Under the pieces are notes generated by a model that saw only the letters and a list, made by a program, of their open reading frames with translations, was not told the origin of the DNA and made no database searches. Position numbers and translations under genes: made by a program. DNA of 64,000 nt, from contig CACMKG010000002.1 of NCBI GenBank assembly GCA_902614235.1, positions 1 through 64,000 on the forward strand, read 5' to 3'. Below, in pieces: positions 11,000 through 34,840 of this stretch. Every line of letters starts with the position of its first letter. Positions within the stretch are counted from its first letter, which is position 1. The stretch comes from an uncultured SAR86 cluster bacterium (GTDB lineage: Bacteria; Pseudomonadota; Gammaproteobacteria; Magnimaribacterales; AG-339-G14).

Positions 11000-11003
11000 T
11001 TGA

Positions 11004-11462
11004 TTAAGATTTAAAAGTTAACTGAGCACTAACTGTATCTCCGGAAACTCTTCTTATGTTCATTTTTGTAATCTCAACATTATTATTATTAATCTCTAAA
11101 AGCCAATTAAATAAATCAACAAAATTAGATTCATTTATCCAAATGGATATTTCGCCATCTGACAATGGTAAAGAACGATCAATTTTGAGATTCTTATCCA
11201 GTGCGGATGTATTTAAAGAAGACGCAAAATTACTCGAGAAATTTGATCTTGAAATTATCTCTTGATCCTTTATTGAAGATAAAAATTCTATTCTACTAAT
11301 AGTAATTTCATTTTCTTTTTTTATATCCAAAATACTATTATTTAGAGTAAAAATTATAAAAATTAAAAAATAAAAACTTATAAAAAGAAAAGTTCCAAAA
11401 AGAATGATTTGATGCAATCTCGTTAGTTTTATATTGAACATGTTTTTAAAAATTTCCAACAT
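11004..11462 (-). CDS. gspM: Type II secretion system protein M
   Basis: A 152-residue bitopic protein: a short cytoplasmic N-terminus, one hydrophobic segment near residues 20-42, then a periplasmic coiled and ferredoxin-like domain. GspM dimerises with GspL and helps tether the GspE ATPase at the inner membrane. The sequence is poorly conserved in this family, so the call depends on size, topology and its place between gspL and gspN. It overlaps gspL by 17 bases. Confidence 0.82.
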   Translation of the reverse strand: MLEIFKNMFNIKLTRLHQIILFGTFLFISFYFLIFIIFTLNNSILDIKKENEITISRIEFLSSIKDQEIISRSNFSSNFASSLNTSALDKNLKIDRSLPLSDGEISIWINESNFVDLFNWLLEINNNNVEITKMNIRRVSGDTVSAQLTFKS

Positions 11463-12582: not shown

Positions 12583-13571
12583 AATGAATTACCTTTCTTT
12601 CTTGAGATAATTTGCATAGTTTCTTTTTCTTTCAAAAATCCAGTGTTCATTATAAATGTGAACTCATCAAATTTTATCTGAGTTTTTAAATTAAAATAAA
12701 ATGGTTCGGTCGTAAGTTTTTCCTTGGCAAATTTTGTCTCAAAACTTTTTTTTATAAAGTCATCATTAAAAAAATCTCCTATTTCTTTAAAACCTTCTAA
12801 AGGTCTATTCTCAATAATATTGATAGCATCTTGATCAGTTATTTTATTCTCGCTTAGTGCAACTAAAATTTTTGGCTTTAAAGGCGAAATAGAATTCAAA
12901 TTTATTAAATTTGACTCATTTGGCAACGCGCAAATGTAAGGCTTTAAGTTTTGATATATGTCTTCACTAATTCCTTTAACTTGTCTGATTTCATTGATAT
13001 TTTGAAAATAATCATTAGCTGGTAAATATGGAGATTCTAAATTTGAGTAGTAAAAATCTTCTGCTCCGTTGTAATTATCAGGAAAGTCATCAAAATCCAT
13101 CCAGTCTGTGAGAGACGCAGATATGATTTCAACTTTTTCTTCTGGTGTATCCAGACTTATTAATAAGTTTTTAAAAAATTTTAACTCTTCTTGATTTACG
13201 ATTTTCTTATTACTTTTTTCTATGTTAGTTACCAACACATTGATGTTAAAACAATCGCTTTTATCTTCGATTTGAGCCAGAACATCGCCTCTCTCTATTG
13301 GAATTTTTATAGGACTATAAGGATCATATTTATTTGTCATTAATGATAATGAATTTCTTTTTTCTGAAGAACTTATGAAGTCTAAGGTGTATTCCTCCAA
13401 ACTCAGCACTAAAAGAAGTGATTGCTGGTCACTTATATATTTTTTTTCTAACTCAGATGTAAAAATTGTAATGTCAAAAAGCCTATAACCTATTAAAGAT
13501 ACAACAGAGGTTATCAACAACGATAAAAGAAGAGCTGCCCCTCTTTCAATTTTTATATCTTTCTTAAGCAT
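12579..13571 (-). CDS. gspK: Type II secretion minor pseudopilin K
   Basis: A 330-residue minor pseudopilin, the large one that caps the pseudopilus tip. The prepilin leader ends at ERG, with cleavage before AALLLSLLITSVV. As usual for GspK, position +5 is not glutamate. The globular part contains the helix-hairpin-helix-like inserts typical of this protein (INEIRQVKGI, LNSISPLKPKILVALS) and acidic residues (DWMDFDDFPD) where Ca2+ binding is known in GspK. It overlaps gspJ by eight bases. Confidence 0.9.
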   Translation of the reverse strand: MLKKDIKIERGAALLLSLLITSVVSLIGYRLFDITIFTSELEKKYISDQQSLLLVLSLEEYTLDFISSSEKRNSLSLMTNKYDPYSPIKIPIERGDVLAQIEDKSDCFNINVLVTNIEKSNKKIVNQEELKFFKNLLISLDTPEEKVEIISASLTDWMDFDDFPDNYNGAEDFYYSNLESPYLPANDYFQNINEIRQVKGISEDIYQNLKPYICALPNESNLINLNSISPLKPKILVALSENKITDQDAINIIENRPLEGFKEIGDFFNDDFIKKSFETKFAKEKLTTEPFYFNLKTQIKFDEFTFIMNTGFLKEKETMQIISRKKGNSL

Positions 13572-14136
13572 TGGAAACTATAAAAATTTTTTTAAAAAAA
13601 ACTTCTCCTATTTTTATGTTGAATTTGAGTAGTTTTGGAATATTTTCAGGTTCAAAAGAAGAAAAAGAACTCGATAAAGGTTTTTGTATCTCAATTTCAG
13701 AAACATCTGAAATTAATGCTAATGGGTTACTTGAATATGGAGAATTTAGAAAATTACTTACATATCGATTTAAAGTTCCATTTTCTAAAATATATTTTAC
13801 TTTGAACATAGATCCAGTATTTCCCAATCCGTCGCTGGAAGAAAACCTAACAAACTCTATAGCTGTTCCATTTTCAATTAAAAAAGGTGAAATAAAGAAA
13901 ATTTGTTTTTTAACTCCAAATTCATTTCGAGCTAATTTATCTGAAGCATGAACTAAGTCGTCTCTTATTACTTCCGTAGCAACGATAAGTTGTTTTAAAT
14001 TGTCTGTTTTAGAATTTATTTGAAAAAAAGAATTTGCCGAAGAAGATAAAAAGGATAAAGAAATTAAGGCAATCATACTAAAAATGAATAAGACAATTAA
14101 CATTTCTATCAAAGAGTAGCCTCTGCTGATTTTCAT
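13564..14136 (-). CDS. gspJ: Type II secretion minor pseudopilin J
   Basis: A 190-residue minor pseudopilin. The leader is MKISRG, cleaved before YSLIEMLIVLFIFSMIALIS; glutamate is at position +5 of the mature protein. The beta-rich globular domain follows. GspJ forms the tip complex with GspI and GspK. The start overlaps the gspI stop by four bases. The body is divergent, so the subtype call leans on order and length. Confidence 0.9.
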   Translation of the reverse strand: MKISRGYSLIEMLIVLFIFSMIALISLSFLSSSANSFFQINSKTDNLKQLIVATEVIRDDLVHASDKLARNEFGVKKQIFFISPFLIENGTAIEFVRFSSSDGLGNTGSMFKVKYILENGTLNRYVSNFLNSPYSSNPLALISDVSEIEIQKPLSSSFSSFEPENIPKLLKFNIKIGEVFFKKIFIVSNA

Positions 14137-14483
14137 TTTAGTGTTTTGAATATTTCTAATTTGTATGGATTGGACTTAGTTTCAGATGCTACTTCCACTG
14201 ATATGCTCAAAGAATTCTGAGATCTGTTGATATTAATATTCCTTCTCCAAATATAAGAATTACCCATCATAATTTCTGATTGAGTGGAGATGTTATTAGT
14301 TAGAAAGTTATTGTCGTAAAAAGAAAGCAGTAAAATATTTTCTGCAATGGTTGAAGAATAAAAATCATCTTTTAATTTCAAATAACTATTTGTTGAAAAA
14401 CTAATACTCGATAGTCCTGCAGCAGCAACTATAGATAAAATCAATAACGAAACTAAAACTTCTACTAAGGTAAAACCTTTCAC
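14133..14483 (-). CDS. gspI: Type II secretion minor pseudopilin I
   Basis: A 116-residue minor pseudopilin. The very short leader MKG is cut before FTLVEVLVSLLILSIVAAAG, with Glu at +5. GspI starts assembly of the I-J-K tip. It starts only five bases after the gspG stop. In most T2SS operons gspH lies between these two genes; here there is no room for it. Confidence 0.9.
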   Translation of the reverse strand: MKGFTLVEVLVSLLILSIVAAAGLSSISFSTNSYLKLKDDFYSSTIAENILLLSFYDNNFLTNNISTQSEIMMGNSYIWRRNININRSQNSLSISVEVASETKSNPYKLEIFKTLK

Positions 14484-14488
14484 TCAAG

Positions 14489-14944
14489 TCAATCCAAATT
14501 AGATATGTCACTCTCAAGACCTTCTCCCCCTTTTTGGCCATCTGCACCAAAGGAAATAATCTCAAATGGACTATTGTTTTTTCCTGGCCTTTCGTATTGA
14601 TAGTCATTGCCCCATGGGTCAAGCTCTAACCTCCTTATGTAGCCGCCTTGTCGATATCTATCTGAAAATCTATTGTTGGAGGGTTTTTCTATCAGCGCTT
14701 TCAAACCTTCTTGTTTCGTTGGGTAAGAGAACATATCTAACCTATAAAGCTCTAAAGCTTGTTCCATAATCCTGATATCGGCCTTTGCTTTATCAACTCT
14801 TGCTCGGTCTTGACTAGGCAAGACATTTATAGCTACAACGGCAGTTAACATTCCTATAATCATAAGAACAACTAATATTTCAATGAGGCTGAATCCATTT
14901 TCCAGTGATTTAAAATTAAAATTTTTTCTTACCTTTTTTTTCAT
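14489..14944 (-). CDS. gspG: Type II secretion major pseudopilin G
   Basis: A 151-residue major pseudopilin. The leader ends SLENG and is cleaved before FSLIEILVVLMIIGMLTAVV, with Glu at +5. The mature part has the conserved ALELYRLDMFSYPT, the LDPWGNDYQYERPG block and the C-terminal Ca2+-binding loop (SFGADGQKGGEG). This is the subunit that polymerises to push substrates through the secretin. Its ATG overlaps the gspF stop by four bases. Identity is secure. Confidence 0.96.
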   Translation of the reverse strand: MKKKVRKNFNFKSLENGFSLIEILVVLMIIGMLTAVVAINVLPSQDRARVDKAKADIRIMEQALELYRLDMFSYPTKQEGLKALIEKPSNNRFSDRYRQGGYIRRLELDPWGNDYQYERPGKNNSPFEIISFGADGQKGGEGLESDISNLD

Positions 14945-16149
14945 AACGTTGTCGTAAAAGTATTTAGTTGGATTAATGGCAAAAGAATTGCCAAAACAAT
15001 CAAAGCAACAAAGACTCCTAGAATAATAATAACTAATGGTTCAAGAAGATTCATTGCAATTTTAGTTGAATTTTTAAATCTTGTTTCTAAATAATCTGAG
15101 AGCTTAGATAACATCTCTTCGAGTTTTCCTGAATTTTCTCCATTTTGAATCATCTGAATAACTAACGGCGGCACAACATCAACTTTTTCCAAAGATCTCG
15201 CAATAGATTCTCCTTCTTTAACGTTATTTGATGCTTTTTTTATTGAGCTTCTCAAGTAGCTATTCGAAATTGTATCAGATGAAATCTGTAAAGCATTTAG
15301 GATAGAAACATTTCCCATCCTAAGTAGACTCAGCGAACTAGTAAATCTAGATAAATCAGCGTCTAACAAAAAATCTTTTATAACTGGAATTTTTAATAAA
15401 ACCTTATCAAATTTAGTTTTTACTTTTTCAGCTCCTAAATATCTTACTAGAATAAAAAAAGATAAGAGAGGAATCATTAATGAAAATAAAAAAAACGGAC
15501 TTCTGATCATTTCAGAAAGATTAATAAGATATTTGGTTAAAAAAGGGAGTTCTCTATTCAAAGAGGAAAATTGTGAAACTACGTCTGGAACTACATAAAC
15601 AAGCAACATACTTATTATTCCCAAAGCAACAGTAAAGAGAATGGCAGGATAAACTAAAGCTCCTGTGATTTCCTGAGTCATGTTTGCTCTTCTTTCTAAG
15701 AAGTCTGATGTTTTTTCTAAAATTAATCCCAACTCACCGGAAGATTCTCCAGCTTTTATGAGCGAGCAGTATAGTTTGTCAAAAGACTCAGGGTGTTCTT
15801 CTAATGATTCAGAAAATTTGAAACCTGATTTTACTTTTAAAGAAACCTGTTTCAGTTTATTTTTAACTCGAAGAGGTTCAATTTGATTTGAAACTGAATC
15901 TAAAGCTTGATCAACAGGTATGCCGCTATTGATTAAAGTAGATAATTGTCTTGAAATTAATGACAATTTTGAAAATCCGATCGATGAAAAAAAACTAAAA
16001 TTAAATCTTGTGTTTGATTTTTTTAGTTTGAGTGGAATTAGTTTTCTATTTTTTAGTTCGTTTTGAGCTTCATTAATATTTTCGGCTACTAGGTAGCCAT
16101 TTTCGGTTTCACCGTTATGATCAATTGCCTTGTATGTAAAACTAGCCAT
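14941..16149 (-). CDS. gspF: Type II secretion inner-membrane platform protein F
   Basis: A 402-residue polytopic protein with two GspF/PilC cytoplasmic domains and three membrane segments. Visible marks are SRQLSTLINSGIPVDQAL and LIKAGESSGELGLIL in the first domain, and MIQNGENSGKLEEML in the second. GspF is the platform on which the GspE ATPase drives pseudopilin assembly. It sits two bases after gspE. Confidence 0.95.
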   Translation of the reverse strand: MASFTYKAIDHNGETENGYLVAENINEAQNELKNRKLIPLKLKKSNTRFNFSFFSSIGFSKLSLISRQLSTLINSGIPVDQALDSVSNQIEPLRVKNKLKQVSLKVKSGFKFSESLEEHPESFDKLYCSLIKAGESSGELGLILEKTSDFLERRANMTQEITGALVYPAILFTVALGIISMLLVYVVPDVVSQFSSLNRELPFLTKYLINLSEMIRSPFFLFSLMIPLLSFFILVRYLGAEKVKTKFDKVLLKIPVIKDFLLDADLSRFTSSLSLLRMGNVSILNALQISSDTISNSYLRSSIKKASNNVKEGESIARSLEKVDVVPPLVIQMIQNGENSGKLEEMLSKLSDYLETRFKNSTKIAMNLLEPLVIIILGVFVALIVLAILLPLIQLNTFTTTL

Positions 16150-16151
16150 AA

Positions 16152-17519
16152 TTAATCAACTTGCTTAAGAACTCTTTTTATCTCTAATTCCGAAGTAATG
16201 CCCTTTTTGACTTTTTCTTCGCCATCATTCAGCAAAGAATTATATTTTTTGAAAGCTACTTTTCTAATTTTATCTTCGTCTATAGTTTCATTTATAAAAT
16301 TTCTAATATCGCTATCTATTTTAATCATCTCGAAAATTCCAACTCTTCCAGAGAATTCATTTTTGTTGGTTAATTTTCTTACGAGTCTCTGCGCTATAAC
16401 CATTTTTAAAGTACTGGCTAGAAGGTACGGCTCAACCCCCATATCAATCAATCTTGTGATGGCTCCAACCGAATCATTCGTATGGATAGTAGACAAGACT
16501 AAGTGACCGGTTAAACTCGCTTGAATAGCAGTTTCAGCAGTTTCCTTATCTCTAATCTCACCGACCATAACAACATCTGGATCTTGTCTCAATATTGCTC
16601 TTAATCCTTTAGAGAAGGACAAGCCTACTTTGTTATTTACTTGAGTTTGGCCTACACCTTCCAAAGCATACTCAATAGGATCTTCAACGGTTAATATATT
16701 TCTCGTCTGATCATTTAGAAAATTCAGTCCAGAATAAAGAGTAGTTGTTTTTCCTGAACCGGTGGGTCCCGTTACCAAGATTATTCCACTTGTACTTTTA
16801 AGTTGTTGCAAATAATCTTTTGTCATTTCACTAGTCATTCCCAGATCTTCTAGATCAAGGCTCGCATCTGCTTTATCTAACAACCTTAAAACAAGCCTTT
16901 CTCCAAAACTTGAAGGCAAAGTGGAAACTCTAATATCGACCCACTTTTCTCCTAATTTTAATGACATTCTTCCATCTTGAGGTATTCGTCGTTCAGCAAT
17001 ATCAAGATTAGACATAACTTTTATTCTTGCATTCAATAAAGGTGCAATTCTGCTACTGGGATTTAATTTTTCTTTTAAGATGCCATCAATCCTAAATCTT
17101 ACAGATAAATTTTCTTCGTATGGTTCTATGTGGATATCTGAAGCACCATCTTTAATTGCCTCAGATAAAATAGCATTAATTAATCTAATGACAGGAGCAT
17201 CGTTACTATCATCTAACAAGTCTTCAGTTTTAGGAAGATTAGAGACCAAAGAATCAAGATCAATATTTTCATCGATATTTTCGATCAAGTCTTCTGAAGC
17301 AGAAGTATTGTTTGTGAAGTTATCAGATAAAGCTTTGTTAAATTTATTAAGGGGCAGCTTAGATAAGTTCAATGGCAGATCAAAATGTTTTTGCAAATAA
17401 GAAATAGCAGAAATTTTAGTATCGTTTGTGTATTTAATGATCAATTGGTTATGATCTTTCTCCAATAAAATTTGATTTTCTTTGCAATATTTGTAACTTA
17501 AATCGATTTCATTTTTCAT
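16152..17519 (-). CDS. gspE: Type II secretion ATPase E, lacking the zinc-binding insert
   Basis: The hexameric ATPase that powers pseudopilus assembly; 455 residues. Walker A is GPTGSGKT at 251-258. The Asp box (SDIHIEPYEENLSVRFRIDG), Walker B region (RQDPDVVMVGEIRD) and His box (GHLVLSTIHTND) are intact. In Vibrio EpsE and E. coli GspE a domain with two CxxC pairs of roughly 45 residues sits between RLVR and the GR(T/V)GI motif. Here only a few residues (about 384-390) separate them and no cysteine pair is left, which explains the short length. The N-terminal part that binds GspL is present but divergent. Confidence 0.95.
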   Translation of the reverse strand: MKNEIDLSYKYCKENQILLEKDHNQLIIKYTNDTKISAISYLQKHFDLPLNLSKLPLNKFNKALSDNFTNNTSASEDLIENIDENIDLDSLVSNLPKTEDLLDDSNDAPVIRLINAILSEAIKDGASDIHIEPYEENLSVRFRIDGILKEKLNPSSRIAPLLNARIKVMSNLDIAERRIPQDGRMSLKLGEKWVDIRVSTLPSSFGERLVLRLLDKADASLDLEDLGMTSEMTKDYLQQLKSTSGIILVTGPTGSGKTTTLYSGLNFLNDQTRNILTVEDPIEYALEGVGQTQVNNKVGLSFSKGLRAILRQDPDVVMVGEIRDKETAETAIQASLTGHLVLSTIHTNDSVGAITRLIDMGVEPYLLASTLKMVIAQRLVRKLTNKNEFSGRVGIFEMIKIDSDIRNFINETIDEDKIRKVAFKKYNSLLNDGEEKVKKGITSELEIKRVLKQVD

Positions 17520-17526
17520 CTGATTT

Positions 17527-19419
17527 TTAATTATTAATTAAGTCTTCTAATACCTTTAAATCAGGTGTGGGTCGCCCTCTTTTAGTTTTTAAAATTTGTT
17601 CAGCTTTTAAAAGGTTGTATTTCTCATTTGTAATCGTTTGCATGTCTGTTACATCTCGAACAATAGTTGGTTTCAAGAAGACAACTAAATTCTTTTTTGA
17701 TCTTGAAGTCGTAGTAGATTTAAACAACCTACCTAATAAGGGAATATCTCCTAATAATGGGACTTTTCTCTCTGATTCCTGCACGTCATCGCTTATCAAA
17801 CCACCCAAAACAATAATCTCACTATCTTCTACCATCACGGCCGTTTTAATTTCTCTTTTATTTGTAGCTATTTCGGAAGCTCCAATCAACAAAGGTCCAA
17901 ACACGCTTGATACTTCTTGTTCTATATCTAACCGAATGGAGTTTCCCTCATTAATTTGTGGTTTAACAAGTAACTTGACGCCAACTTCTTCTCTGCTGAC
18001 CGTTCTAAAAGGATTTGTATTGTCAGAACCTAAAGATTCTCCAGTTGTGATTGGTATTTCTTGGCCAACTATAATTGAGGATTCTTCGTTATCCATTGTG
18101 AGAATAGAAGGAGTTGATAACACATTAGAATCTGTATCTTTTCGAAGAACATTAAGAATTGCAGCAAAACTTTTTCCATCCTTTTTATATTTTCCAACTC
18201 CAGCAGCGAATCCATCTAAGGTTAATAGTGATTGTGCTGAAATTGGAATAGAAGATGAACCGGACGTAGTATCGTAAACTTCTCCTCCTACAATCGCAGT
18301 TAGATCAGGATTTGGGTTTCCAAATCGTTGAGAAACAATTGGGGTATCAGACCCATCGCCCGAGAAAAGGATTTGAACACCGAGCTCTTTTGCTAAAGTA
18401 TCTGAAATTTCTACAATAATAGCCTCCACCAAAACTTGGGCTCTTTTGATATCTAAGCTTGCAATAACATCTTCAATTGCTGTCATTACTTCAGGGTCGG
18501 CAGAGATTACTAGTGAATTGGTACCTTCATGTGCTTCGATGCTAGTTGTTATTTTACTGGTACTTCTATCTTGTGCTGTTAAATTTTCTGATAAATTCTT
18601 TAAAATCTTTTCGAGAGACTTTGCATCGGCATATTTAAGATATTTCACTTTCAGGGTGCTTGAACCACTTTGCTCGGTATCTAAATTCTGTATGAGATTT
18701 TTCATCCTATCCACTATAGGTTCGTCTCCAACCAAAAGGATGCTATTGCTTCGATCAATTGAATATGAAGTGAATTGATTGGGATTCATTCCTCCTGAAT
18801 TATCATTGAAAATTTTATCAATTATCTTTGAGACTTCTTTTGAGGAAGAATAATTAAGTTTGATAAACTCATATTTTTCACCAGGTGTTTTGTCAAGTTC
18901 ATTAATAATGCCTCTTAACTTTTCTACATTTCCAGCTCGGTCTGCAATTATCAGCGAATTAGTCGGCTCATAAACTGCCAGATGACCCTGCGAAGAAATA
19001 ATCGGCCTCAATAGTGAAATTAAAGAGTTCACTGAAGCAAATTTAGGTTTAATAATATCTGTCACAAAGGAGTCAGCTGGGCTATTTGACCTAGGGAATG
19101 TATTAAAGGCTTGCCTTCCGATAATCTCAGGAACTATTTTAGTAGCGTTATCTTGTTCTACAGCAGCATATCCATGCACAGCTAAAACAGAGAGCATAAC
19201 TTCATAGGCTTCATCAATGGATAAATCCTCACGAGAAATTATTGTTATTTTTGCATTTATTCTTGGGTCGACTATAAAAGTCTTACCCGTTAAAGATGAA
19301 ATATCAGATATAAAAGCTCTGATATCAGCATCACGCATATTAATAGTAACGGCATGGCTATATAGAGATAGTATAAGCGTCAGAGTCGCGCAAAATTTTA
19401 AGTAATTTCTTAAATACAT
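17527..19419 (-). CDS. gspD: Type II secretion outer-membrane secretin D
   Basis: A 630-residue secretin that forms the outer-membrane channel. A signal peptide (about residues 1-23) is followed by the N0 domain (TINMRDADIRAFISDISSL), N1-N3 repeats, then the secretin core with VEAIIVEI, GQEIPITTG and VPLLGDIPLLGRLF. The C-terminal tail after the core is short, with no clear pilotin-binding S domain, and no gspS is seen. Either another targeting route or a distant pilotin is needed. It lies between gspC and gspE with gaps of seven bases. Confidence 0.96.
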   Translation of the reverse strand: MYLRNYLKFCATLTLILSLYSHAVTINMRDADIRAFISDISSLTGKTFIVDPRINAKITIISREDLSIDEAYEVMLSVLAVHGYAAVEQDNATKIVPEIIGRQAFNTFPRSNSPADSFVTDIIKPKFASVNSLISLLRPIISSQGHLAVYEPTNSLIIADRAGNVEKLRGIINELDKTPGEKYEFIKLNYSSSKEVSKIIDKIFNDNSGGMNPNQFTSYSIDRSNSILLVGDEPIVDRMKNLIQNLDTEQSGSSTLKVKYLKYADAKSLEKILKNLSENLTAQDRSTSKITTSIEAHEGTNSLVISADPEVMTAIEDVIASLDIKRAQVLVEAIIVEISDTLAKELGVQILFSGDGSDTPIVSQRFGNPNPDLTAIVGGEVYDTTSGSSSIPISAQSLLTLDGFAAGVGKYKKDGKSFAAILNVLRKDTDSNVLSTPSILTMDNEESSIIVGQEIPITTGESLGSDNTNPFRTVSREEVGVKLLVKPQINEGNSIRLDIEQEVSSVFGPLLIGASEIATNKREIKTAVMVEDSEIIVLGGLISDDVQESERKVPLLGDIPLLGRLFKSTTTSRSKKNLVVFLKPTIVRDVTDMQTITNEKYNLLKAEQILKTKRGRPTPDLKVLEDLINN

Positions 19420-19426
19420 ATTTTGT

Positions 19427-20257
19427 TTAATTTACTTTTATACCGATTGAAATTGGATTGTTATCTCTCAAAATCGAAAGATTAAGATCCCTGGCTTCAC
19501 TGAAAAAAGTCTCTAGGTTTGAAAGGTAATTTTCATTTAGATCAGAGACTAGAGCACCATTTATTGAAACAAGAACATCTCCTGGCATAAGATCTAAGTT
19601 AACCAAAAAGTCTTTATTTTCTCCAGGATTGACTTCCAGTCCAGACAAAGTACCGTTTGAAAAAATTGGAACAAAAGAAATCGCTTCAAGAATATTTTGA
19701 TTTGATAACCACTCCGCAGAAATTATATTGTCATTTTTATTTGCAGGATTCTTTAAAATTTCAGTTTCTATTCCAGAAATTAGGTTCGGTTTATTAAATG
19801 AAAGACTCTCTGCAACCCCAGATCTATTGATCGTTACATAATCTTTATGTATCGACTCTAAAAAAACATTATCTAAGATGCGATCTCCTGTCTGATACTC
19901 TTTTTGATCTGATTTACTTAGGCCAATGATTGCAAAATTTTTATCCTCGGAGGAAGTCACGCCAAATAACTTCAAAGATAATGATGTTTCTGGAGCTTTG
20001 ATAGCGTTTAAAAGAGCATTGGAATTTTCTTTAGATTCATAATTTGACAAGAAAGGATTTCGATCTATCTTTTTGATTTGGATCTTTGCGGCGGTGGACT
20101 GATTTAGAACGGGTGTGTCAGCAAAGATTATTTCTAAAACTACATTTGAAGTCTCAAAAGAAAATATTAAAACAACGATAGCAATAGCAATTGTTTTGGC
20201 CTTTTTAGAAACGAAATCAGCGATTTCATTGTAAATATTAAAAAAATTTATATTCAT
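19427..20257 (-). CDS. gspC: Type II secretion protein C with PDZ domain
   Basis: A 276-residue bitopic protein that links the inner-membrane platform to the secretin and helps select substrates. One membrane segment lies near residues 22-45. The HR domain (LKLFGVTSSEDKNFAIIG, YQTGDRI) follows, and the C-terminal PDZ domain has LMPGDVLVSINGALV. The first gene of the operon, it is transcribed away from the prepilin peptidase gene. A PhoB-like box lies about 62 bases upstream. Confidence 0.92.
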   Translation of the reverse strand: MNINFFNIYNEIADFVSKKAKTIAIAIVVLIFSFETSNVVLEIIFADTPVLNQSTAAKIQIKKIDRNPFLSNYESKENSNALLNAIKAPETSLSLKLFGVTSSEDKNFAIIGLSKSDQKEYQTGDRILDNVFLESIHKDYVTINRSGVAESLSFNKPNLISGIETEILKNPANKNDNIISAEWLSNQNILEAISFVPIFSNGTLSGLEVNPGENKDFLVNLDLMPGDVLVSINGALVSDLNENYLSNLETFFSEARDLNLSILRDNNPISIGIKVN

Positions 20258-20318
20258 AATTTAAATATACTAGTTTGACCTTTAGCGGATATATTATCTA
20301 CTAAATATGCGATTTTGA

Positions 20319-20341
20319 ATGACAATTAAGTGACAATTTGA
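20319..20341 (-). promoter_or_regulatory. Candidate PhoB box facing the T2SS operon
   Basis: Read towards gspC the sequence is TTGTCACTTAATTGTCATT: two TGTCA half-sites exactly 11 bases apart with an AT-rich spacer. This is close to the E. coli Pho box (CTGTCAT, four bases, CTGTCAT). A possible -10 (TATTTA, 20307-20302) begins 17 bases after the second half-site, near the spacing known for PhoB promoters. On the other strand the same bases lie just before TATTAT/TATAAT and the prepilin peptidase ATG. Confidence 0.6.
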
Positions 20342-20354
20342 ATATTATAATTTT

Positions 20355-21104
20355 ATGGAAATTTTATATGCTTTCTTGCTAGGACTTATATTTGGAAGCT
20401 TTCTCAATAGCTTGTCATATCGCATGCCTATTATCCTTAATTATCGTAATGCTTTGAAGGAGTTTCCAGATATGGGACTTTCTTTTCCCAGGTCGTTTTG
20501 TCCAAATTGCAAAACACCTTTATCAGTATTTTCGCTCATACCGGTTTTAAGTTTTTTTATTCAAATGGGCAAATGTAAATCTTGCAAACAAAGTATTTCA
20601 ATCAGTTACCCTTTTTTCGAAATTTTGCTTGGAATTTTATTTGCTTTAATTTTGATCAAAGCAGGCTCGATAAATTATATCTTTCTTTTAGATTGTCTTT
20701 TTATTTTTACCTTAATCTTAATAGCTCGCTTGGACGAAATTTTTTTCAAAATTCCCTTCTCGCTTAATTTAATCGTTTTTTTTAATGGAATTCTTACCAA
20801 TTTTTATTTCACTTCTTTAGGCCTAGGGTTTGTCTCTTTCTTGATATGCCTTGCCGTGTTATCTGCTATCAAATTTTTAGCAGACTATATATTGAAGAAA
20901 GATTCTTTTGGTTGGGGGGATATAATATTGATATCTAATCTATCTCTGTTTTTTGGTATCTACAATTTACCCTTTATTTTATTTGTCTCTTCTTTATCAG
21001 GAATAATTTGGTATTTTTTTAAAAAAAGAAATGTTTCAGAAAAAACTATTGCTTTTGGTCCGCACATTACTTTGTCTGGAATCTGGTTGTTATTTATTCT
21101 TTAA
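20355..21104 (+). CDS. gspO: Prepilin peptidase / N-methyltransferase (GspO/PilD)
   Basis: A 249-residue polytopic enzyme that removes prepilin leaders and methylates the new N-terminus; it serves GspG, I, J and K. The N-terminal FGSFLNSLSYRMP block, the zinc domain with two CxxC pairs (FCPNCKTPL, KCKSCKQSI) and YPFFEILLG match the family. The two catalytic aspartates are probably in LIARLDEIFFKIP and GWGDIILIS. The usual lysine after the second Asp pair (GxGDxK) is isoleucine here. The TATTAT/TATAAT box ends a few bases before the ATG, so the message may be leaderless. Confidence 0.92.
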   Translation: MEILYAFLLGLIFGSFLNSLSYRMPIILNYRNALKEFPDMGLSFPRSFCPNCKTPLSVFSLIPVLSFFIQMGKCKSCKQSISISYPFFEILLGILFALILIKAGSINYIFLLDCLFIFTLILIARLDEIFFKIPFSLNLIVFFNGILTNFYFTSLGLGFVSFLICLAVLSAIKFLADYILKKDSFGWGDIILISNLSLFFGIYNLPFILFVSSLSGIIWYFFKKRNVSEKTIAFGPHITLSGIWLLFIL

Positions 21105-21111
21105 ATTAATT

Positions 21112-22362
21112 TTATACACCAAAAATTATTCTTAATAAAATATAGAAGAGAATTGTAAATGCCGCACCAGTAGGAATAGTTACTAACCAAGAAGCAATTA
21201 TTCTCCTTATCGAAGCATAATCTAAGTGTTCTGCGCCTTTAGCTAGCCCAACGCCTATAACTCCACCGACCAGTGTATGTGTAGTTGAAATAGGAAACCC
21301 AAGATAAGTCGCAGCAACAACAGTAGACGCTGTAGCCATTTCCGCGGAGAAGCCAAGACTAGGTGTTAGAGCTGTAATTTTTTTTCCGACTGTTGAGATG
21401 ACCCTAGAACCTAGAGTTGCTAAACCAAAAACGATCCCAATACCTCCAACAAGTAAAACCCATGGGCTGATCGAAGATTTAGATCCTATTTCGCCAGTAT
21501 CCACTACACTTACAACTGCTGCCAAAGGTCCAATTGCATTTGCAACATCATTTGAACCATGAGCAAAAGCCATAGCGCTAGCAGAAACTATCATCAGCAA
21601 TCCAAATGCAAATTCAATGCCGCCTTCTCTCATTATTTGATCTTTATTCCTTCTTAAAAAAAATGCTGTTCCAGTTGCAACAATAATGCTAAAAATTAAA
21701 ATAAATAAATAAATTTCATTTTCTGAAAATTCTATTCCTACATGTTTAAGACCTTTCCTTGCTGTGACGAGTGAAATAACGACTGCTACTAGAAAACTAT
21801 ATAATGGAATAAAAGTGATAGCTGCTTTTCCAGGATTGGCTCTATCTAAAATTAATTTTTTTGCAGATATATAGAGTCCAAAAGCTAAAGTTCCAGAAAA
21901 TAAAGGGGAAGTTACCCAACTCATTGCTATATTACCAACCTTGCCCCAAGATACAGCATCTACTCCCTTAGAAATTAGTACGAAACCAATAATAGCTCCC
22001 ACTATTGAGTGAGTAGTAGAAACAGGCCAGCCTCTTAAACTCGCGATAAACAACCAAGTACCTCCTGCTAAAAGAGCAGATATCATGCCCATTACAAATA
22101 TATTTACATCATTGGTATATAGATTTGGATCTACGATGCCTTTTCTAATTGTAGAAGTTACTTCTCCACCTGCTAAAAAAGCTCCTAAAAATTCAAAAAT
22201 AGCCGCAATTATTACTGCTTGTTTAAGGGTTATAGCTTTGCTTCCTACAGAAGTCCCCATGGAGTTTGCAACATCGTTAGCACCAATGCCGAAAGCCATA
22301 AAAAAACCAATAAATCCTGCAATCAAAAGTATATTAAAAGGATCCAAAAACAAAGTTTCCAT
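21112..22362 (-). CDS. Inorganic phosphate transporter, PiT family
   Basis: A 416-residue permease with about ten membrane segments and the duplicated PiT signature. The first copy is GANDVANSMGTSVG with STTHSIVGAIIG; the second is HGSNDVANAIGPLAA with STTHTLVGGVIGVG. PiT proteins import metal-phosphate complexes with H+ or Na+. It converges on the prepilin peptidase gene. A 43-base element with 11-base repeats lies 34-76 bases upstream of its start and has a near copy in front of the TonB receptor at 26.5 kb. Confidence 0.95.
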   Translation of the reverse strand: METLFLDPFNILLIAGFIGFFMAFGIGANDVANSMGTSVGSKAITLKQAVIIAAIFEFLGAFLAGGEVTSTIRKGIVDPNLYTNDVNIFVMGMISALLAGGTWLFIASLRGWPVSTTHSIVGAIIGFVLISKGVDAVSWGKVGNIAMSWVTSPLFSGTLAFGLYISAKKLILDRANPGKAAITFIPLYSFLVAVVISLVTARKGLKHVGIEFSENEIYLFILIFSIIVATGTAFFLRRNKDQIMREGGIEFAFGLLMIVSASAMAFAHGSNDVANAIGPLAAVVSVVDTGEIGSKSSISPWVLLVGGIGIVFGLATLGSRVISTVGKKITALTPSLGFSAEMATASTVVAATYLGFPISTTHTLVGGVIGVGLAKGAEHLDYASIRRIIASWLVTIPTGAAFTILFYILLRIIFGV

Positions 22363-22531: not shown

Positions 22532-22657
22532 TTATGAAAAATAAAGAACTGCCACCAAAACTATCCATAAAGAAATAAAACCAAATATAATCATCTCTTG
22601 TAATTGAGACTTTGCAGGTATTAATCTTTGATCTTTAAGAACAGTTTTAGTATTCAT
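22532..22657 (-). CDS. Small single-span membrane protein, 41 residues
   Basis: An open frame with ATG start in an otherwise empty 536-base gap. The first 21 residues are polar (MNTKTVLKDQRLIPAKSQ and on); residues about 22-40 form one hydrophobic helix (MIIFGFISLWIVLVAVLYF). I do not recognise the family. Three TGTCA-like repeats at 11-base spacing lie 19 bases upstream and point at it. The PiT gene is downstream on the same strand. The ribosome site is weak, so this is plausible rather than proven. Confidence 0.5.
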   Translation of the reverse strand: MNTKTVLKDQRLIPAKSQLQEMIIFGFISLWIVLVAVLYFS

Positions 22658-22675
22658 ATCTTTTTTGTAACTTAA

Positions 22676-22711
22676 ATGACACTTTTATGTCACATAATAG
22701 ACACAATAGAC
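22676..22711 (-). promoter_or_regulatory. Candidate PhoB box, three tandem 11-base repeats
   Basis: Read on the minus strand: TGTCTATTATG, TGACATAAAAG, TGTCATTTAAG. Units two and three together resemble the E. coli Pho box closely. The repeats end 19 bases before the ATG of the 41-residue gene, so there is little room for a standard -10 and leader; the promoter may use the first two units. The rest of the gap up to the phytase stop (22712-22898) shows only AT-rich sequence. Confidence 0.55.
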
Positions 22712-22898
22712 TAATTTTATATAAAAAACTAGCATTTTTTTTAAAACTATAAAATTTAAATATTTTAAAATTTAATTCAATTCCAATTTCAGTTTAGTCC
22801 TTAGGCTGATAAGAAATAGATTTATCCAGAACAATAAAAGGCAAAGGTAAGAATTAATGGATATGAGTGTTTGAATTATTAGATATAAACTCTATAAG

Positions 22899-24020
22899 TT
22901 ATCTAGGAACAGTTAAGGCATCAAGTACATCTTTGAAAGAGACAATTTTGAAGTTTTGTCTTTTAGTTTCATACCCATCTTTATTAAAACCATCTTGTGC
23001 AATCATAATACCTTCTGGATACTCATCACTCAGTTTAAAGTTGATTGTTTCTATACCGTCAGTATCAGTAACATTATCTATACTTTTTGAAGAGCCTATT
23101 CTAAAACTGGTTATATAATCATATGGATAATTCCTATCATACAAATTAAATTTACTATCTCCTTGGGAGGATAAAATTAAATAACCAGAATTGTTTGATG
23201 TTTTATATAAAGATACACCCTCTGGGTCGCCACCAATTTGACCTTCTCTAGAATCGACAATATATGGCTCAGAGAAATCAAAACTATCATCGAGTCTATA
23301 AGCTTTTAAAACCCCTCTTACTTCTTCTTCTGATATAAAAAGAGTCCTATTGAAATCATCATAAACACACCCTTCCGATTCTCCACCATTATTAAAAGTT
23401 GTTATAAGATCGAGGCCATTTTCAGTCAGGTTCCATACTTCAACTCGCGGACCGGTGTCTTCTGTTAAAAAAGCAACTAATCCATACTTTGGATCGATTC
23501 CAGCGCATATACCGTATACGATAATATTTGATTTACCTCTAAATGATGGTTTTGATGGGACTTCCCATAAATTATTTTTAAGTTTTTGTCTTATTTTATT
23601 ATCTTCAAATACCCATAAATCTACCGATCCTAATGTTCTATTAGACCCAAAAAGGAAAGTAAAATCAGAGACATTCTCATCGTCTCCAAGATTCATACTT
23701 CTTGTATCAACATTATTAATCCTACCAAGATTTGTATAGCTCAACTCTTGTCCTTGAAGATTGTAACTATAAATTCCGCTTTTTTTATCAGTTCCAAAGA
23801 TAATTGAATTTGAAGGATTATTTTTATTTACCCATATTGCAGGATCATCAGCTGCATCTCCCTCAGTTATAACTGGCGGTGTCTCGTAAATTGCCTCAAC
23901 CTCAACATAATCTGCAAAAGTAAAAGTAGAAAGGAAAAAGGCAAGTATGAAACTTGCCTTTTTAGGGAGAATATAATTTTTAGTACTTATAAGTGAAACC
24001 AATTGTCGCACTTCTACCAT
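22899..24020 (-). CDS. Beta-propeller phytase (3-phytase-like), exported
   Basis: A phosphatase that removes phosphate from inositol phosphates in a Ca2+-dependent six-blade propeller. Matches to the family run the whole length: DDPAIWVNKNNPSNSIIFGT, DKKSGIYSYNLQG, GRINNVDTRS, then ESEGCVYDDFNRTLFISEEE, GGDPEGVSLY, LILSSQGDSKFNLYDR, DNVTDTDGIETINF and EGIMIAQDGFN. A signal peptide is visible (LPKKASFILAFFLSTFTFA before DYVEVE). The start is unclear: all usable ATG, GTG or TTG codons overlap the receptor gene; I give ATG 24020, alternatives are GTG 24011, TTG 24002 and ATG 24080. It probably acts outside the inner membrane, feeding the neighbouring TonB receptor. Confidence 0.9.
   Translation of the reverse strand: MVEVRQLVSLISTKNYILPKKASFILAFFLSTFTFADYVEVEAIYETPPVITEGDAADDPAIWVNKNNPSNSIIFGTDKKSGIYSYNLQGQELSYTNLGRINNVDTRSMNLGDDENVSDFTFLFGSNRTLGSVDLWVFEDNKIRQKLKNNLWEVPSKPSFRGKSNIIVYGICAGIDPKYGLVAFLTEDTGPRVEVWNLTENGLDLITTFNNGGESEGCVYDDFNRTLFISEEEVRGVLKAYRLDDSFDFSEPYIVDSREGQIGGDPEGVSLYKTSNNSGYLILSSQGDSKFNLYDRNYPYDYITSFRIGSSKSIDNVTDTDGIETINFKLSDEYPEGIMIAQDGFNKDGYETKRQNFKIVSFKDVLDALTVPR
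23935..23963. terminator. Hairpin with T-tract between TonB receptor and phytase
   Basis: A perfect 12-base stem, AAAAAGGCAAGT with ACTTGCCTTTTT, and a five-base loop, 17 bases after the receptor stop codon. It looks like a bidirectional intrinsic terminator, yet it lies inside the part of the phytase gene that encodes the signal peptide. If it works, only read-through transcripts would make phytase, giving receptor in excess over enzyme. Confidence 0.6.
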
Positions 24021-26532
24021 ATTCATCATATTGAGAAAGTCTTGAAGGATTGCCCCAATAATAGAATTCTGGTTCGTCATTTATATTAATTAAGTCTAAT
24101 TTAAGAGTTAAATTATCATTCAAATAATATTTGGCTGTAAAGTCTATTTGCGAATGATCGTCAGTAAATCTGATATTGTCATAATTTAGATTATCTACAG
24201 TAGTTTCTATATCATCATCAGCAAGATAATCTAAGTAATCGCTTCTTTGAGCTAACGAGAGTCTCATGTCAACTTTTCCTTTGTCGTACCCAATTGATAA
24301 ATTTCTTGTGCTATCAGCGAGTTTTCTAAATGGAACGGTAAACACACCGGCAGCGCTAGGAACATCACTTTCAGCGTCAACTTCAGTTAAATTTAATGAG
24401 ATGAATAAACCATCAAATGGTTCAGGAAGATTCACAAATTCACTGAAAAAATTGAATTCAATTCCATCAACTGTTGACTTTTCACTGTTAATGTATGTTT
24501 CTAATTCGCTAAAGTTAATCCCTCCAACAACACCTGCTGTAACTTGAGGATAAATAGCATTTTTAACATCTTTCCTAAAATAACCTATTGATACTGCGCC
24601 ATTTTCATAATATCTTTCAAAGCTAAGATCTAGATTTGTAGATTCATATGGTTCTAAGTCAGGATTACCCATTTCTCCCTTATAAATTGTACTTCCATCC
24701 GCTGCAGTTCCATCCGATTTAAAGTCTGCTACGGGAGCAGTTTCACCAAATCCAGGTCTAGATAAAGATCGAAAAATTGCACCACGAACTATTGTGTCGT
24801 CATTGACGAAGTATTTTACGTTTACACTTGGTGATACGAATGTGTAATTTTTAGAAGCTCTAATAGTAGAGTCATCTTCTTTATTGTATCCAAGTGTATC
24901 AAATGAAGTGTCCTCTGCCCTTAGACCAGCAATCACAACTGCATTTTCAAATTCCATTGTGCCCATTAAATAAAGTGCTGTGATATCTTCTTCAGAAACA
25001 AAATCTTTGTCAAAGTTAGGTTTTGCATAGTTATTTGTTAATGAACCAAATGTGCCCTGAAGAGCGAAGATTGTTGCAGGATCTGCCATGGGACCAAAAA
25101 CATTTGGCCAAGGCCAGTTAACTGGTGTAGTAATTGGATTGTAATTTGATTGAGAAGTACCAGGATCCGAAGCGAAACCTGAAACAGTTTTTTCTTTTTC
25201 TCGAGTGCTATATTTGAAGCCAAATTTTAAAGTCGTTGGAACATCAGAAACCGTAAAACCTTCTTTTGTAAAATCAGCCTGAAATGATGATATTGTGTCA
25301 TCAATTACAGAATCTTCCTCTTCAATCTCATCTACTCCCATGCTTGCTGGATCATAAATATTTCCAGCCCCAGTAGTAATTGCAGTAGCTAGAGTCATAC
25401 GTGGTATTTGAGGATTTGAATAATCAAAAGATCCGCAAGGTCCTCCACAAGCAGCTGCCTTAAAGGTACTACTTCTAAACTTTGCATCAACATTGTCTGT
25501 ATCATCTTCTTCAGCAAAAGAATTCGAAAATGCGAACTCTGCATCCCAGCCGTTGACTATTGTGTTACCACCTAGAATGAATGTTCTGATTGTTCTAACT
25601 TCCTCCCTAACTCTTACTTCTGCATCTCTTCTTATTTCTGTAATAGTGCTTCCTGTAGCAGTAACATTACTGTTTTTTAACTTCCCGTACTCGTCTTTAT
25701 ACCTGAGCTCATCATCCACGTATTCATTCCATAAAATATTTGCATACATAGATGATTCATCATTGATCCTATAGTCAATGTCGTAAGTAATACCTAATCT
25801 TTCTCTGGTTAAATCATAATATCTGCTTTCAAAATCATCATCTATTGCAAAGTTTCCACCAGTGGCAGCCCAAGCAGGAAAACCGGTTTCATTGTTGTAA
25901 GTAATTACTTGTTTTTTAGAATAAGTAAGACCAATTATATGTCCTGCATTTTCACTAATCAGATCTCCGTAGGTAAGGGAGATTTTAGGATTATCATTAT
26001 TATATGTTTGATCGTTGTATTGGGTATTTACTTTTAGTTTTAAATACGTGCCATCCAAGTCTAGAGCGCTTTTCGTATTGAACTCAACTCTTCCGCCAAT
26101 AGAATCAAGATCTTGATCAGGAGTTAAAGATTTGTATACTTCAATAGAATCTAGAAGTTCTGTTGGTAGACCGTCAAGCATCACTTTTCTTCCACCTTCT
26201 GGTGCTGGAATAGTTGCGCCATTGACAGAAATGTTGTTTAAGTCTCCAGAAAGACCTCTAACGGTAACATAACGGCCCTCACCTTGGTCGTTTTCAACTG
26301 AAATACCTGAGATTCTTCTTAGAGCCTCTGCAGCGGTAGTATCTGGAAATTCACCTAAGGCATCTGAATCTATAACAGATAAAATCTGATTGGAATCCCT
26401 TTGCTTTTCTATAGCAGAGATGATGCTAGCTTTTGTTCCAACTACCAACAATTCCTCAGTAATTTCTGAGTCTTCTTGTGAAAATACAAAAGGGTTTGCA
26501 AAAATTAAAATAAATAAATATATTTTTTTCAT
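23980..26532 (-). CDS. TonB-dependent receptor (TonB-Xanth-Caul type), phytase partner
   Basis: An outer-membrane gated channel of 850 residues. A signal peptide (MKKIYLFILIFANPFVFS) is followed by the plug domain with SVIDSDALGEFPDTTAAEAL, RRISGISVENDQGEGRYVTV and VYKSLTPDQDLDSIGGRVEF, then a 22-strand barrel ending in the aromatic SATIGFTYKY. The plug wording matches the group often called TonB-Xanth-Caul. I start at ATG 26532 because AAGGAT stands eight bases upstream; a longer frame from 26553 adds seven residues before this signal peptide. The phytase gene behind it suggests uptake of inositol phosphates or their products; that is inference. Confidence 0.93.
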   Translation of the reverse strand: MKKIYLFILIFANPFVFSQEDSEITEELLVVGTKASIISAIEKQRDSNQILSVIDSDALGEFPDTTAAEALRRISGISVENDQGEGRYVTVRGLSGDLNNISVNGATIPAPEGGRKVMLDGLPTELLDSIEVYKSLTPDQDLDSIGGRVEFNTKSALDLDGTYLKLKVNTQYNDQTYNNDNPKISLTYGDLISENAGHIIGLTYSKKQVITYNNETGFPAWAATGGNFAIDDDFESRYYDLTRERLGITYDIDYRINDESSMYANILWNEYVDDELRYKDEYGKLKNSNVTATGSTITEIRRDAEVRVREEVRTIRTFILGGNTIVNGWDAEFAFSNSFAEEDDTDNVDAKFRSSTFKAAACGGPCGSFDYSNPQIPRMTLATAITTGAGNIYDPASMGVDEIEEEDSVIDDTISSFQADFTKEGFTVSDVPTTLKFGFKYSTREKEKTVSGFASDPGTSQSNYNPITTPVNWPWPNVFGPMADPATIFALQGTFGSLTNNYAKPNFDKDFVSEEDITALYLMGTMEFENAVVIAGLRAEDTSFDTLGYNKEDDSTIRASKNYTFVSPSVNVKYFVNDDTIVRGAIFRSLSRPGFGETAPVADFKSDGTAADGSTIYKGEMGNPDLEPYESTNLDLSFERYYENGAVSIGYFRKDVKNAIYPQVTAGVVGGINFSELETYINSEKSTVDGIEFNFFSEFVNLPEPFDGLFISLNLTEVDAESDVPSAAGVFTVPFRKLADSTRNLSIGYDKGKVDMRLSLAQRSDYLDYLADDDIETTVDNLNYDNIRFTDDHSQIDFTAKYYLNDNLTLKLDLININDEPEFYYWGNPSRLSQYDEYGRSATIGFTYKY

Positions 26533-26559
26533 AGTAATAATCCTTAATTCCATATAAAT

Positions 26560-26590
26560 TTACAGGAAGATTGTTACAGAGATGTTACGA
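26560..26590 (-). promoter_or_regulatory. Direct-repeat operator upstream of the phytase-linked TonB receptor
   Basis: On the plus strand TTAC occurs at 26560, 26574 and 26585 (spacings 14 and 11). On the minus strand this reads CGTAACATCTC, TGTAACAATCT and then CTGTAAATTTA. The same 14-then-11 spacing and near-identical bases occur at 33811-33850 before the lipoprotein gene. TGTAACA differs by one base from the TGTCACA form of the Pho box. It ends 28 bases before the start codon. Confidence 0.5.
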
Positions 26591-28061: not shown

Positions 28062-30689
28062 CTATTTAAAGGAGAATTTAAATCCTAATGAAGCTGATTG
28101 ACCAAGATCATATTGATCGTATATTGCAATATTTCTCATAGAAGCATAATACTCCTCGTCAAGTAAATTTCTTAATTCAAGCGACAATTTCAAATCGTAA
28201 TTAGGGTAAGCTAAAACTCTTGAATATGTAAAATCAACCAATAATGGAGGTTCTTCAATAATATCTGGTAAAACATCAATACCTCTAGCCCTTACTCTAT
28301 CACTAACATAGTTAAAGATTAGGGTAGCTTCAGATTGATCTTGTAAATTATCTAAACCAATTTGAAAGTTTGCAATTGAATCTGATTGACCCTGTAATCT
28401 GGTATCTCTTCCATTCGCTAGAAGAGTTTGAGCATTTACTGAAGTACCAAGATTATTTATATAAGTATCTCCAGGATTCACAATTACTTCAGAGTCAGTA
28501 TCCGTATAATTGAACTTAACGATTAAGTCGTTTTTAGAGTCCATTATCGCCTCAAATATTTGTTCATATTCAATTTCAAAACCAGTGATTTCAGCCGTAG
28601 GAACGTTTTGGTATGAAGTAATAATTAAATCACCTGACTCATTAACAGTTTCTTCGATGGGATTAAGAATATCCTTATAAAAAATTCCAGCTGTTAAAAA
28701 TTGATTTAAACCAAAATAGTATTCAGCTCTTAAATCAATATTGTCAATCTCACTATCTTGCAAATATAGTGAACCAGCTATTACTCTGTCAGTATCAACA
28801 TCTATAAATAGTGTCGGAGAAAGCTCTCTGAAGGTTGGCCTAGCAATTGTCTGAGAAAGACCCAATCTAAATTGAAGGTTTTCATCAAATTCAGGAAGAT
28901 AAGTTAATGTCATTGAAGGTAGCGTGTAATCTTCTTCTATTGATTTATCAATAGTAGAGTCAACGCCTGTAAATAAATCAAATGTATTAACTTGCTGAAG
29001 GCCGTCTTCTTGCCTAATTCCAGCAGTAATTTCAAAATTATCTCCAATTTTAGATTCAAAGCTGATATACGCTGCATCAACTTCCAACAATCCTAAGTAC
29101 CCAGCTGGCGATGAACTTGCCGTATTCTCAATTACCATCAATCTATTAGGATCAAAATTTTGATCAGCAAAAATATAATCTATTCTATTATCTAGACCAT
29201 CTCGAGGTATGGGACCGCCAGCAGCCAGAAATCTATAACTTCTAACTTCAGCCGATCTGTCATTTTCAAGACTTTCAACTCCAGCTCTTAAAAATGTTGA
29301 AGAACCAAAGGGTATCTCTAAAGGTATTTCTAAATCTATAACAACATTTGTAGTTTGATCTTCGACCATACTAAACTGGGTTTGGTTCCTACCTGTATTA
29401 ACATCGTATAAGTAAACTCCGTCACTGTTTCCATCTTCATAGAAAGCAACTCTTTCATAAGGAGAATCTCTCTCTGCCTCTCCATCACTCAAACCTACAT
29501 TTAAATTCCAGCCATTTTCAAAAGTCTTATTAAAATTTAACTGATGATTTGTTAATTCTCTTTCGTAAAATTCTAGAAAATCTTCTCGAACATTAGCCGA
29601 ATCACTTGAGTCATACCCTTGCAAGATACGAGCTTCTTTTGATCCTTTATGAATATATAATCCGGTGTATTTTAATTCAGATAAATCCGTTTCAACCCCA
29701 AGAACAGCCATTGCATATGCTGTAATGTCATTCGTTGTGCTTCTAAAAGTTTTGTTATTTTGAACTACTACATTAACAATACCGCCCAGACTTTGTAAAT
29801 CACCGGTTTGTCTGATTCCTTCTTGTGTATCCCAAGAATTTTTGTAACCTCCTGTAACCATAAATCCCATTGTTGCACTTGGAATATTAATGATTTGATC
29901 AATTCCTAAACCGTCAAGACTATCTCCATAAGTCAAACTATAAGATTCATCTAGAGGAACCTCTCCTGATTGTATGACCCATAGCTTTGAATTTTCAAAC
30001 TCTCGACCAAAGTTAGCCAATTGTGTGGTATTAAAGTTAGATCTATCAAGTTTAAGTCTGCTATTGATAGCGTCCTGAACACTGCTTGGAATTGATCTGA
30101 TCCCGTCATCGTACCCAAAACTATCCTCTCCGCCGTCGTACATTAACCCATCATCTTTTAACGAAGTAGCGGAGTTGAAACTTGCTGAAGCTGAAAATTC
30201 AAAGATTCTATCTAAAGGCACAGCCTTTGTTTTTATCTCAACCATACCTCCGCCAAACTCACCAGGCATGTCAGCTGAATAAGTTTTTTGTACTACAGAC
30301 GATTCAATGATGCTTGTTGGAAAAAGATCAAGTGGTACAACTCTTTTGAGTGGTTCTGGGCTTGGAAGATTAAGGCCGTTTAGTGAAGCAGATGAATATC
30401 TATCACCTAAACCTCTTACATATACGTATTTACCTCGCACTAGGCTGAGACCCGCAAGTCTTGTAAGGGCGATAGCAATATTGTCATCACCAGCTCTTTC
30501 GATACTTGATGAATCTAATATTGCAGAAATCTCAGATGTATTCCTTTTTGCGTCTGGTATAAAAGATCCACTTACAACCAACTCTTCATCAGCTTCCTGA
30601 GCATTAATAATTAATGGGAAAACTATTATGAAAGGTAAAGCAAACTTTAAAAAACCCATGATTTTGTTTATTTTTTTTGTAGATTTCAT
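28062..30689 (-). CDS. TonB-dependent receptor paired with the large lipoprotein
   Basis: An 875-residue outer-membrane receptor. It has a signal peptide (cleavage near INAQ), a plug with RGKYVYVRGLGDRYSSASLN, LNLPSPEPLKRVVPLDLFPT and EFGGGMVEIKTKAVP, and a barrel ending in ASLGFKFSFK. GGAG stands seven bases before the ATG. The gene follows the lipoprotein gene by 28 bases, so the two form one transcript, as in SusC/SusD-like pairs though the lipoprotein is not SusD. The substrate is not known; the phosphate context suggests an organic phosphate. Confidence 0.92.
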   Translation of the reverse strand: MKSTKKINKIMGFLKFALPFIIVFPLIINAQEADEELVVSGSFIPDAKRNTSEISAILDSSSIERAGDDNIAIALTRLAGLSLVRGKYVYVRGLGDRYSSASLNGLNLPSPEPLKRVVPLDLFPTSIIESSVVQKTYSADMPGEFGGGMVEIKTKAVPLDRIFEFSASASFNSATSLKDDGLMYDGGEDSFGYDDGIRSIPSSVQDAINSRLKLDRSNFNTTQLANFGREFENSKLWVIQSGEVPLDESYSLTYGDSLDGLGIDQIINIPSATMGFMVTGGYKNSWDTQEGIRQTGDLQSLGGIVNVVVQNNKTFRSTTNDITAYAMAVLGVETDLSELKYTGLYIHKGSKEARILQGYDSSDSANVREDFLEFYERELTNHQLNFNKTFENGWNLNVGLSDGEAERDSPYERVAFYEDGNSDGVYLYDVNTGRNQTQFSMVEDQTTNVVIDLEIPLEIPFGSSTFLRAGVESLENDRSAEVRSYRFLAAGGPIPRDGLDNRIDYIFADQNFDPNRLMVIENTASSSPAGYLGLLEVDAAYISFESKIGDNFEITAGIRQEDGLQQVNTFDLFTGVDSTIDKSIEEDYTLPSMTLTYLPEFDENLQFRLGLSQTIARPTFRELSPTLFIDVDTDRVIAGSLYLQDSEIDNIDLRAEYYFGLNQFLTAGIFYKDILNPIEETVNESGDLIITSYQNVPTAEITGFEIEYEQIFEAIMDSKNDLIVKFNYTDTDSEVIVNPGDTYINNLGTSVNAQTLLANGRDTRLQGQSDSIANFQIGLDNLQDQSEATLIFNYVSDRVRARGIDVLPDIIEEPPLLVDFTYSRVLAYPNYDLKLSLELRNLLDEEYYASMRNIAIYDQYDLGQSASLGFKFSFK

Positions 30690-34785: not shown

Positions 34786-34840
34786 TAAAAATTTAATCTT
34801 CCATAAAAACTTAGCTAGAATAGGTCCTCGCCAAAAAAAC

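Follow-up and report, generated by a model that had tools for sequence, protein, structure and literature searches.

The analysed window, a 64,000-nucleotide stretch of the genome of an uncultured SAR86 cluster bacterium, encodes a type II secretion system (T2SS) whose genes gspC-D-E-F-G-(H/I)-J-K-(L)-M-N form a minus-strand operon (10274..20257). All of these were assigned with Pfam, including gspC itself (19427-20257, minus strand), with the exception of GspL and one pseudopilin, which were assigned by position only. The prepilin peptidase gene gspO (20355..21104, plus strand; Pfam A24_N_bact and Peptidase_A24) is divergent from gspC. Thus gspC, D, E, F, G, K and M and a prepilin peptidase, the set by which we recognised a T2SS, are all present, and a single copy of gspC was found in the genome. 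The 97-bp intergenic region between the two divergent genes (20258..20354) carries, on the minus strand, a conserved -10-like element, GATAATAT, recognised from the sequence and its relatives, and a PhoB-box-like direct repeat, TTGTCACTTAATTGTCATT (20318..20336), identified by exact pattern search and by alignment of the relatives. Its two TGTCA half-sites recur with an 11-bp period (core TGTCA-N6-TGTCA at 20335..20320), which agrees with the definition of a Pho box as at least two TGTCA-like direct-repeat half-sites at that period, and it is the only exact copy of this pattern in the window. The original prediction of two TGTCA half-sites 11 bp apart on the minus strand, 62 bp from gspC, is confirmed (the gspC ATG is at 20257); the site that it placed at 20319-20341 is real but lies a few bases away, at 20336-20318.

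Beyond gspO lies a cluster of phosphate-related genes. A PHO4-family (Pit-like) phosphate transporter (21112..22362, minus strand; E=4e-111) is preceded by a small membrane ORF of 41 amino acids that is conserved among relatives (MNTKTVLKDQ..., 22532..22657, minus strand, by sequence reading) and by a four-unit array of 11-bp period, GTGTCTATTAT GTGACATAAAA GTGTCATTTAA GTTACAAAAAA (22661..22704, minus strand; sequence and matrix). The contrast drawn originally between secretion genes and a transporter is therefore misplaced, as the transporter next door has a stronger array of its own. The small ORF encodes a single-span protein directly behind this strongest Pho array, and the proximity of the array to its ATG could reflect repression or leaderless transcription. 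The array is conserved in relatives with and without the phytase island. A relic of 14 codons from the end of a porin gene (3' end, QPKD*TEIGIELNF, 22766..22808, minus strand) comes next; the porin gene is intact in the relatives G005 and G002. Further along are a beta-propeller phytase (22899..24080, minus strand; Pfam PF02333, E=6e-54) and, by profile matches, the TonB-dependent receptors tonB857 (23980..26553, minus strand) and tonB875 (28062..30689, minus strand). Just upstream of tonB857 is another 11-bp pair, GTAACATCTCTGTAACAATCTT (also given as GTAACATCTCTGTAACA; 26567..26588, minus strand), which was found by matrix and spacing count and stood outside the matrix training.

Next to a TonB receptor gene lies a gene for a predicted surface lipoprotein of 1016 amino acids (30719..33769, minus strand; lipobox VVSCGG, from the sequence), which consists of two similar halves, gave no Pfam match and could be a T2SS substrate. 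Two arrays stand before it on the minus strand, both recognised from sequence and matrix: a second 11-bp array, CGTAACGGTTT CGTAATATTTC TGTAACTATCT (33818..33850), and a TGTAACA array of the same period (33953..34016) that overlaps the divergent orf161. The polyphosphate genes for PPK2 and Ppx/GppA follow (34754..36554, plus strand; profile match). Within the window no boxes were seen ahead of phoB and ppk2, and no phage similarity of the region was found. Elsewhere, at G000:C1:337192-337218 (L025/L026), a three-unit 11-bp array, TGACTATGAAGTGACAATATGGTGTCA, lies upstream of a 266-aa ORF that has no Pfam match and adjoins a PhyH-family gene; this ORF is a possible further member of the regulon.

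The box could serve gspC, gspO or both. In a Pho box the repeats stand in for the -35 element, and a -10 follows at a fixed short distance. On the gspC side, GATAAT begins 26 bp past the start of the second half-site, as opposed to about 16 bp for the corresponding -10 distance at E. coli phoA, CATATT and TATTTA at 15-17 bp are weak, and the promoter scan returned no minus-strand sigma-70 match at the box; the originally proposed -10 is thus not clearly at the right distance. Read towards gspO, the site is TGACA-N6-TGACA, ATGACAATTAAGTGACA, with TATTAT/TATAAT just downstream, and the plus-strand match ATGACA-18-TATTAT is the only consensus promoter over the box. These features would suit a PhoB site that acts mainly on the divergent gspO or on both genes, or that serves as a repressor or steric site, and the mixture of TGTCA and TGACA units in the PHO4 array means that the orientation of the gspC box is not set by sequence. 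However, the -10-like element on the gspO side is only 6 bp from the gspO ATG, so that leaderless transcription would be needed, and all nine aligned taxa have an unchanged GATAATAT on the side of gspC. Overall, we consider a site of this kind fairly unlikely. Of the original description of a PhoB box pointing at the T2SS operon, the link to a PhoB site stands, but the direction is not supported, as the site lies between two divergent genes.

Another possibility is that two TTGTCA-like hexamers arose by chance in an A+T-rich promoter and were retained only through recent transfer of the segment. Exact pairs are in line with this: the whole genome (1.09 Mb) contains two, compared with ~2.3 expected from its base composition (33% G+C), so the exact-consensus scan by itself gives no support to a PhoB site. 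The second of these pairs lies within a GST-like coding gene, leaving the gspC/gspO pair as the only intergenic one, and in shuffles of the 97-bp intergenic region, which was chosen by eye, an exact pair occurred with P=0.00015. The picture differs for loose T[GTA][TA]CA pairs at exactly 11-bp period, of which the interval 20250-34100 contains 13 as opposed to 1.45 expected (~9-fold; background rate from 392 kb of this genome). Spacings other than 11 bp are nearer background, the next highest being 9 vs 3.2. In intergenic DNA of the phosphate cluster there are seven such pairs, compared with 0.41 in shuffles, none of 1000 of which reached as high a number; in these counts self-complementary sites were scored on both strands, in cluster and background alike, and the independent sites number about five. 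Such pairs occur in 4/7 intergenic regions of the phosphate cluster and in 4/113 elsewhere. The original prediction would fall if such pairs were equally common in random DNA, which holds for exact pairs genome-wide but not for the local cluster with its 11-bp spacing, and this surrounding sequence context argues against a chance origin of the gspC box.

A scan with a matrix of the genome's own sites had also been proposed. We built one by eye from the local phosphate-gene sites, excluding the gspC box, and applied it to 20 sample stretches and the window (457 kb). The gspC pair exceeds all other non-training intergenic sites in this sample, but its score is fragile, falling from 14.8 to 6.8 without the porin site (see below), because the remaining local sites favour G before the half-site. 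An argument from the matrix alone was dropped for that reason. With this matrix the arrays at 22661-22704 and 33953-34016, both of them training sites, outscore the gspC box by far, so the latter is the best Pho box of the window by the E. coli consensus but not by the local matrix.

Among nine aligned taxa including the window, the gspC box is letter-identical in L041, L042, L046 and L047 and absent from L043, L044, L045 and L048. As 4/9 aligned gspC promoters lack it, which would also suit a chance origin, we discarded conservation as a simple proof; the identical boxes are one transferred allele, and their conservation may reflect shared descent. L046 (NZKG01000032.1) is titled Marinoscillum sp. 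yet carries SAR86-type T2SS genes and is probably mislabelled or contaminated. In G013, whose T2SS genes are only 43-57% identical, the same intergenic region holds a different 11-bp pair, GTTACAGATTCGTAACA (GTTACA/GTAACA; P=0.036 when taken alone). When genomes with the gspC/gspO arrangement are compared, a box is present in 5/5 of those with the phytase island (G000, G006, G012, G013 and G014, four of which share one allele) and in 0/17 of those without phytase (G002, G005, G004, G011 and 13 genomes of genus g4), some of the genomes being incomplete; G018, a member of genus g3 in which phytase is present and gspC lies behind a TonB gene, was left out of this count. G012 (L141, G012:C6) carries another gspC copy (64% identity) whose promoter lacks the box, which could mean either a second T2SS or a mixed assembly.

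No box was found before gspC in the 13 g4 genomes, whose gspC promoters have a conserved sigma-70-like TTGTCA-18-TAAAAT; a lone TTGTCA is a plausible -35 there, another point for chance. Genus g3 has no box directly before gspC, because it is a TonB receptor gene that precedes gspC there, and phased TGACA-N6-AGTCA or TGACA-N6-TGTAA is found ahead of the lipoprotein gene. In G018 (L142, G018:C5, 282-7069) the lipoprotein, TonB, gspC and gspD genes are co-directional, and the first of them has phased TTGACACAAATAAGTCA upstream; in three other g3 genomes (L068, L070 and L073), TTGACACATTCTTGTAAC stands before the lipoprotein homologue. In G005 and G002 a phosphate-adjacent porin occupies the place of the island, and upstream of it is TTTCACTTAATTGTCA (also given as TTTCACTTAATTGTCACA) in G005 and, with one base different, TTTCACTAAATTGTCA in G002. 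The G005 porin site and the gspC box have the 14-mer TCACTTAATTGTCA in common. This shared 14-mer, the independent G013 pair, the enrichment specific to 11 bp and the shuffling result speak against chance, which we regard as quite unlikely. There is good support for a PhoB site tied to the T2SS operon from the local enrichment of 11-bp pairs, the invariance of the box in the window and four relatives, the independent pair in G013 and the co-occurrence with the phytase island.

Identity profiles against relatives also put the box immediately within one end of a segment that has been exchanged. G014, a member of another genus, is 70-90% identical to the window in the T2SS operon, 96-98% from ~20,300, mostly >90% up to ~34.5 kb (parts of the lipoprotein gene are lower) and 75-83% beyond 37.5 kb. 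L046 likewise jumps to at least 94% at ~20,300, with a T2SS only ~75% identical, and G005 has the reverse pattern, with gspC mostly at least 90% identical to the window and the promoter 62-70%. The two jumps and the fall in G005 at the same point show that the resident T2SS promoter was displaced by the segment, and the region 20300-37500 of the window is an apparent phosphate-acquisition cassette exchanged between lineages. The porin C-terminus relic at 22766-22808 was left where the phytase island displaced a porin of the G005/G002 type.

The regulator that would read these sites is encoded nearby, where a PhoR-like histidine kinase (36542..37894, minus strand; profile match, below the NCBIfam cut-off) adjoins a PhoB-like response regulator (37895..38593, minus strand; Pfam and NCBIfam TIGR02154). 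The latter combines a receiver and a winged-helix domain, by Pfam and alignment, with a PhoB-like recognition helix, RTVDTHIKRLRSKI, and wing, ETVRGEGY; its DNA-binding domain is 38% identical to that of E. coli PhoB and keeps RTVDxHIxRLR and TVRGxGY. Its TIGR02154 score is below the cut-off (238 vs 296.2 bits), yet this is the best among NCBIfam models, and we therefore limit the assignment to 'PhoB-like'. Orthologues are present in 34/40 genomes. The T[GT][TA]CA direct repeats could instead be read by another member of the OmpR/PhoB family, or by a regulator of some other kind, that is not linked to phosphate. This reading would accord with the TIGR02154 score and with the drift of local half-sites such as GTAACA and GTTACA from the E. 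coli CTGTCAT consensus, but is very improbable, given that the only full-length OmpR/PhoB-type protein found in the genome by the PhoB model sits among ppx, ppk2 and PhoR-like genes and that arrays stand before the PHO4 and phytase units. A profile search of the 90% complete genome (G000) detected no PstB over the family cut-off, and thus no Pst-coupled Pho system with PstSCAB and PhoU acting on PhoR was recognised. Phosphate sensing may therefore bypass Pst, unlike in E. coli. In a published survey, Pit was core to SAR86 and Pst was restricted (PMC11582366).

We consider it reasonably likely that the gspC box is a PhoB site that activates the T2SS promoter together with the other phosphate units and is carried on the exchanged segment. 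Under phosphate limitation, the PhoR/PhoB pair at 36.5-38.6 kb would generate PhoB~P. Bound to both direct repeats as a dimer in head-to-tail arrangement, PhoB~P would then activate the T2SS promoter, for the gspC operon and perhaps gspO too. The PHO4, tonB-phytase and lipoprotein-tonB units would be activated alongside, so that phosphate-releasing proteins would be produced and exported together, with the phytase or the lipoprotein as a presumptive T2SS substrate. As part of the exchanged phosphate segment, whose left edge would supplant the resident T2SS promoter, the box would bring low-phosphate induction with it, and SAR86 cells of this kind probably turn on secretion under phosphate shortage. 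More tentatively, and in our view possible rather than probable, the cassette (gspC promoter, gspO, PHO4, phytase, TonB receptors and lipoprotein) may be swapped among SAR86 lineages by homologous recombination, its PhoB-dependent edge promoter capturing the resident T2SS operon.

In E. coli, the Pho boxes of pstS and phoA consist of TGTCA direct repeats with an 11-bp period. The SAR86 sites match these repeats and this period, and the PhoB recognition helix is largely conserved; they differ in that the SAR86 arrays also contain GTAACA, GTTACA and GTGACA half-sites and in the -10 spacing at gspC. Another parallel is the PhoB regulon of Caulobacter crescentus, which includes the T2SS, TonB receptors and degradation of phosphate compounds; when starved of phosphate, Caulobacter releases a lipoprotein, ElpS (PMC11208175). 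The SAR86 cluster holds the same ingredients. However, PhoB control in Caulobacter was established experimentally, whereas in SAR86 it is predicted from sequence; sensing is Pst-coupled in Caulobacter, while no Pst ATPase over the cut-off was found in the SAR86 genome; and, unlike in Caulobacter, the SAR86 genes form one recombining segment. In Pseudomonas aeruginosa, the Hxc and Xcp T2SS proteins and the secreted phosphatase LapA rise at low phosphate (PMC9769906). Hxc is a second, dedicated T2SS there, in contrast to the single GspC found in SAR86. The link between phosphate and T2SS is not universal, since hxcR of P. fluorescens SBW25 is not phosphate-induced (PMC2225411).

Phosphate or PhoB control of a T2SS is thus already known from Caulobacter and P. 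aeruginosa; what would be new is a Pho-dependent promoter delivered on an exchanged cassette. SAR86 bacteria are among the most abundant in the surface ocean and hard to culture. A connection between their T2SS and phosphate stress would suggest that this system has a role in scavenging organic phosphate. It would also show a streamlined genome rewiring a core secretion system through a promoter imported together with the substrates. If the exchange of the cassette is as outlined above, a single step would have sufficed to make a core secretion machine phosphate-controlled, which would amount to a promoter swap in nature.
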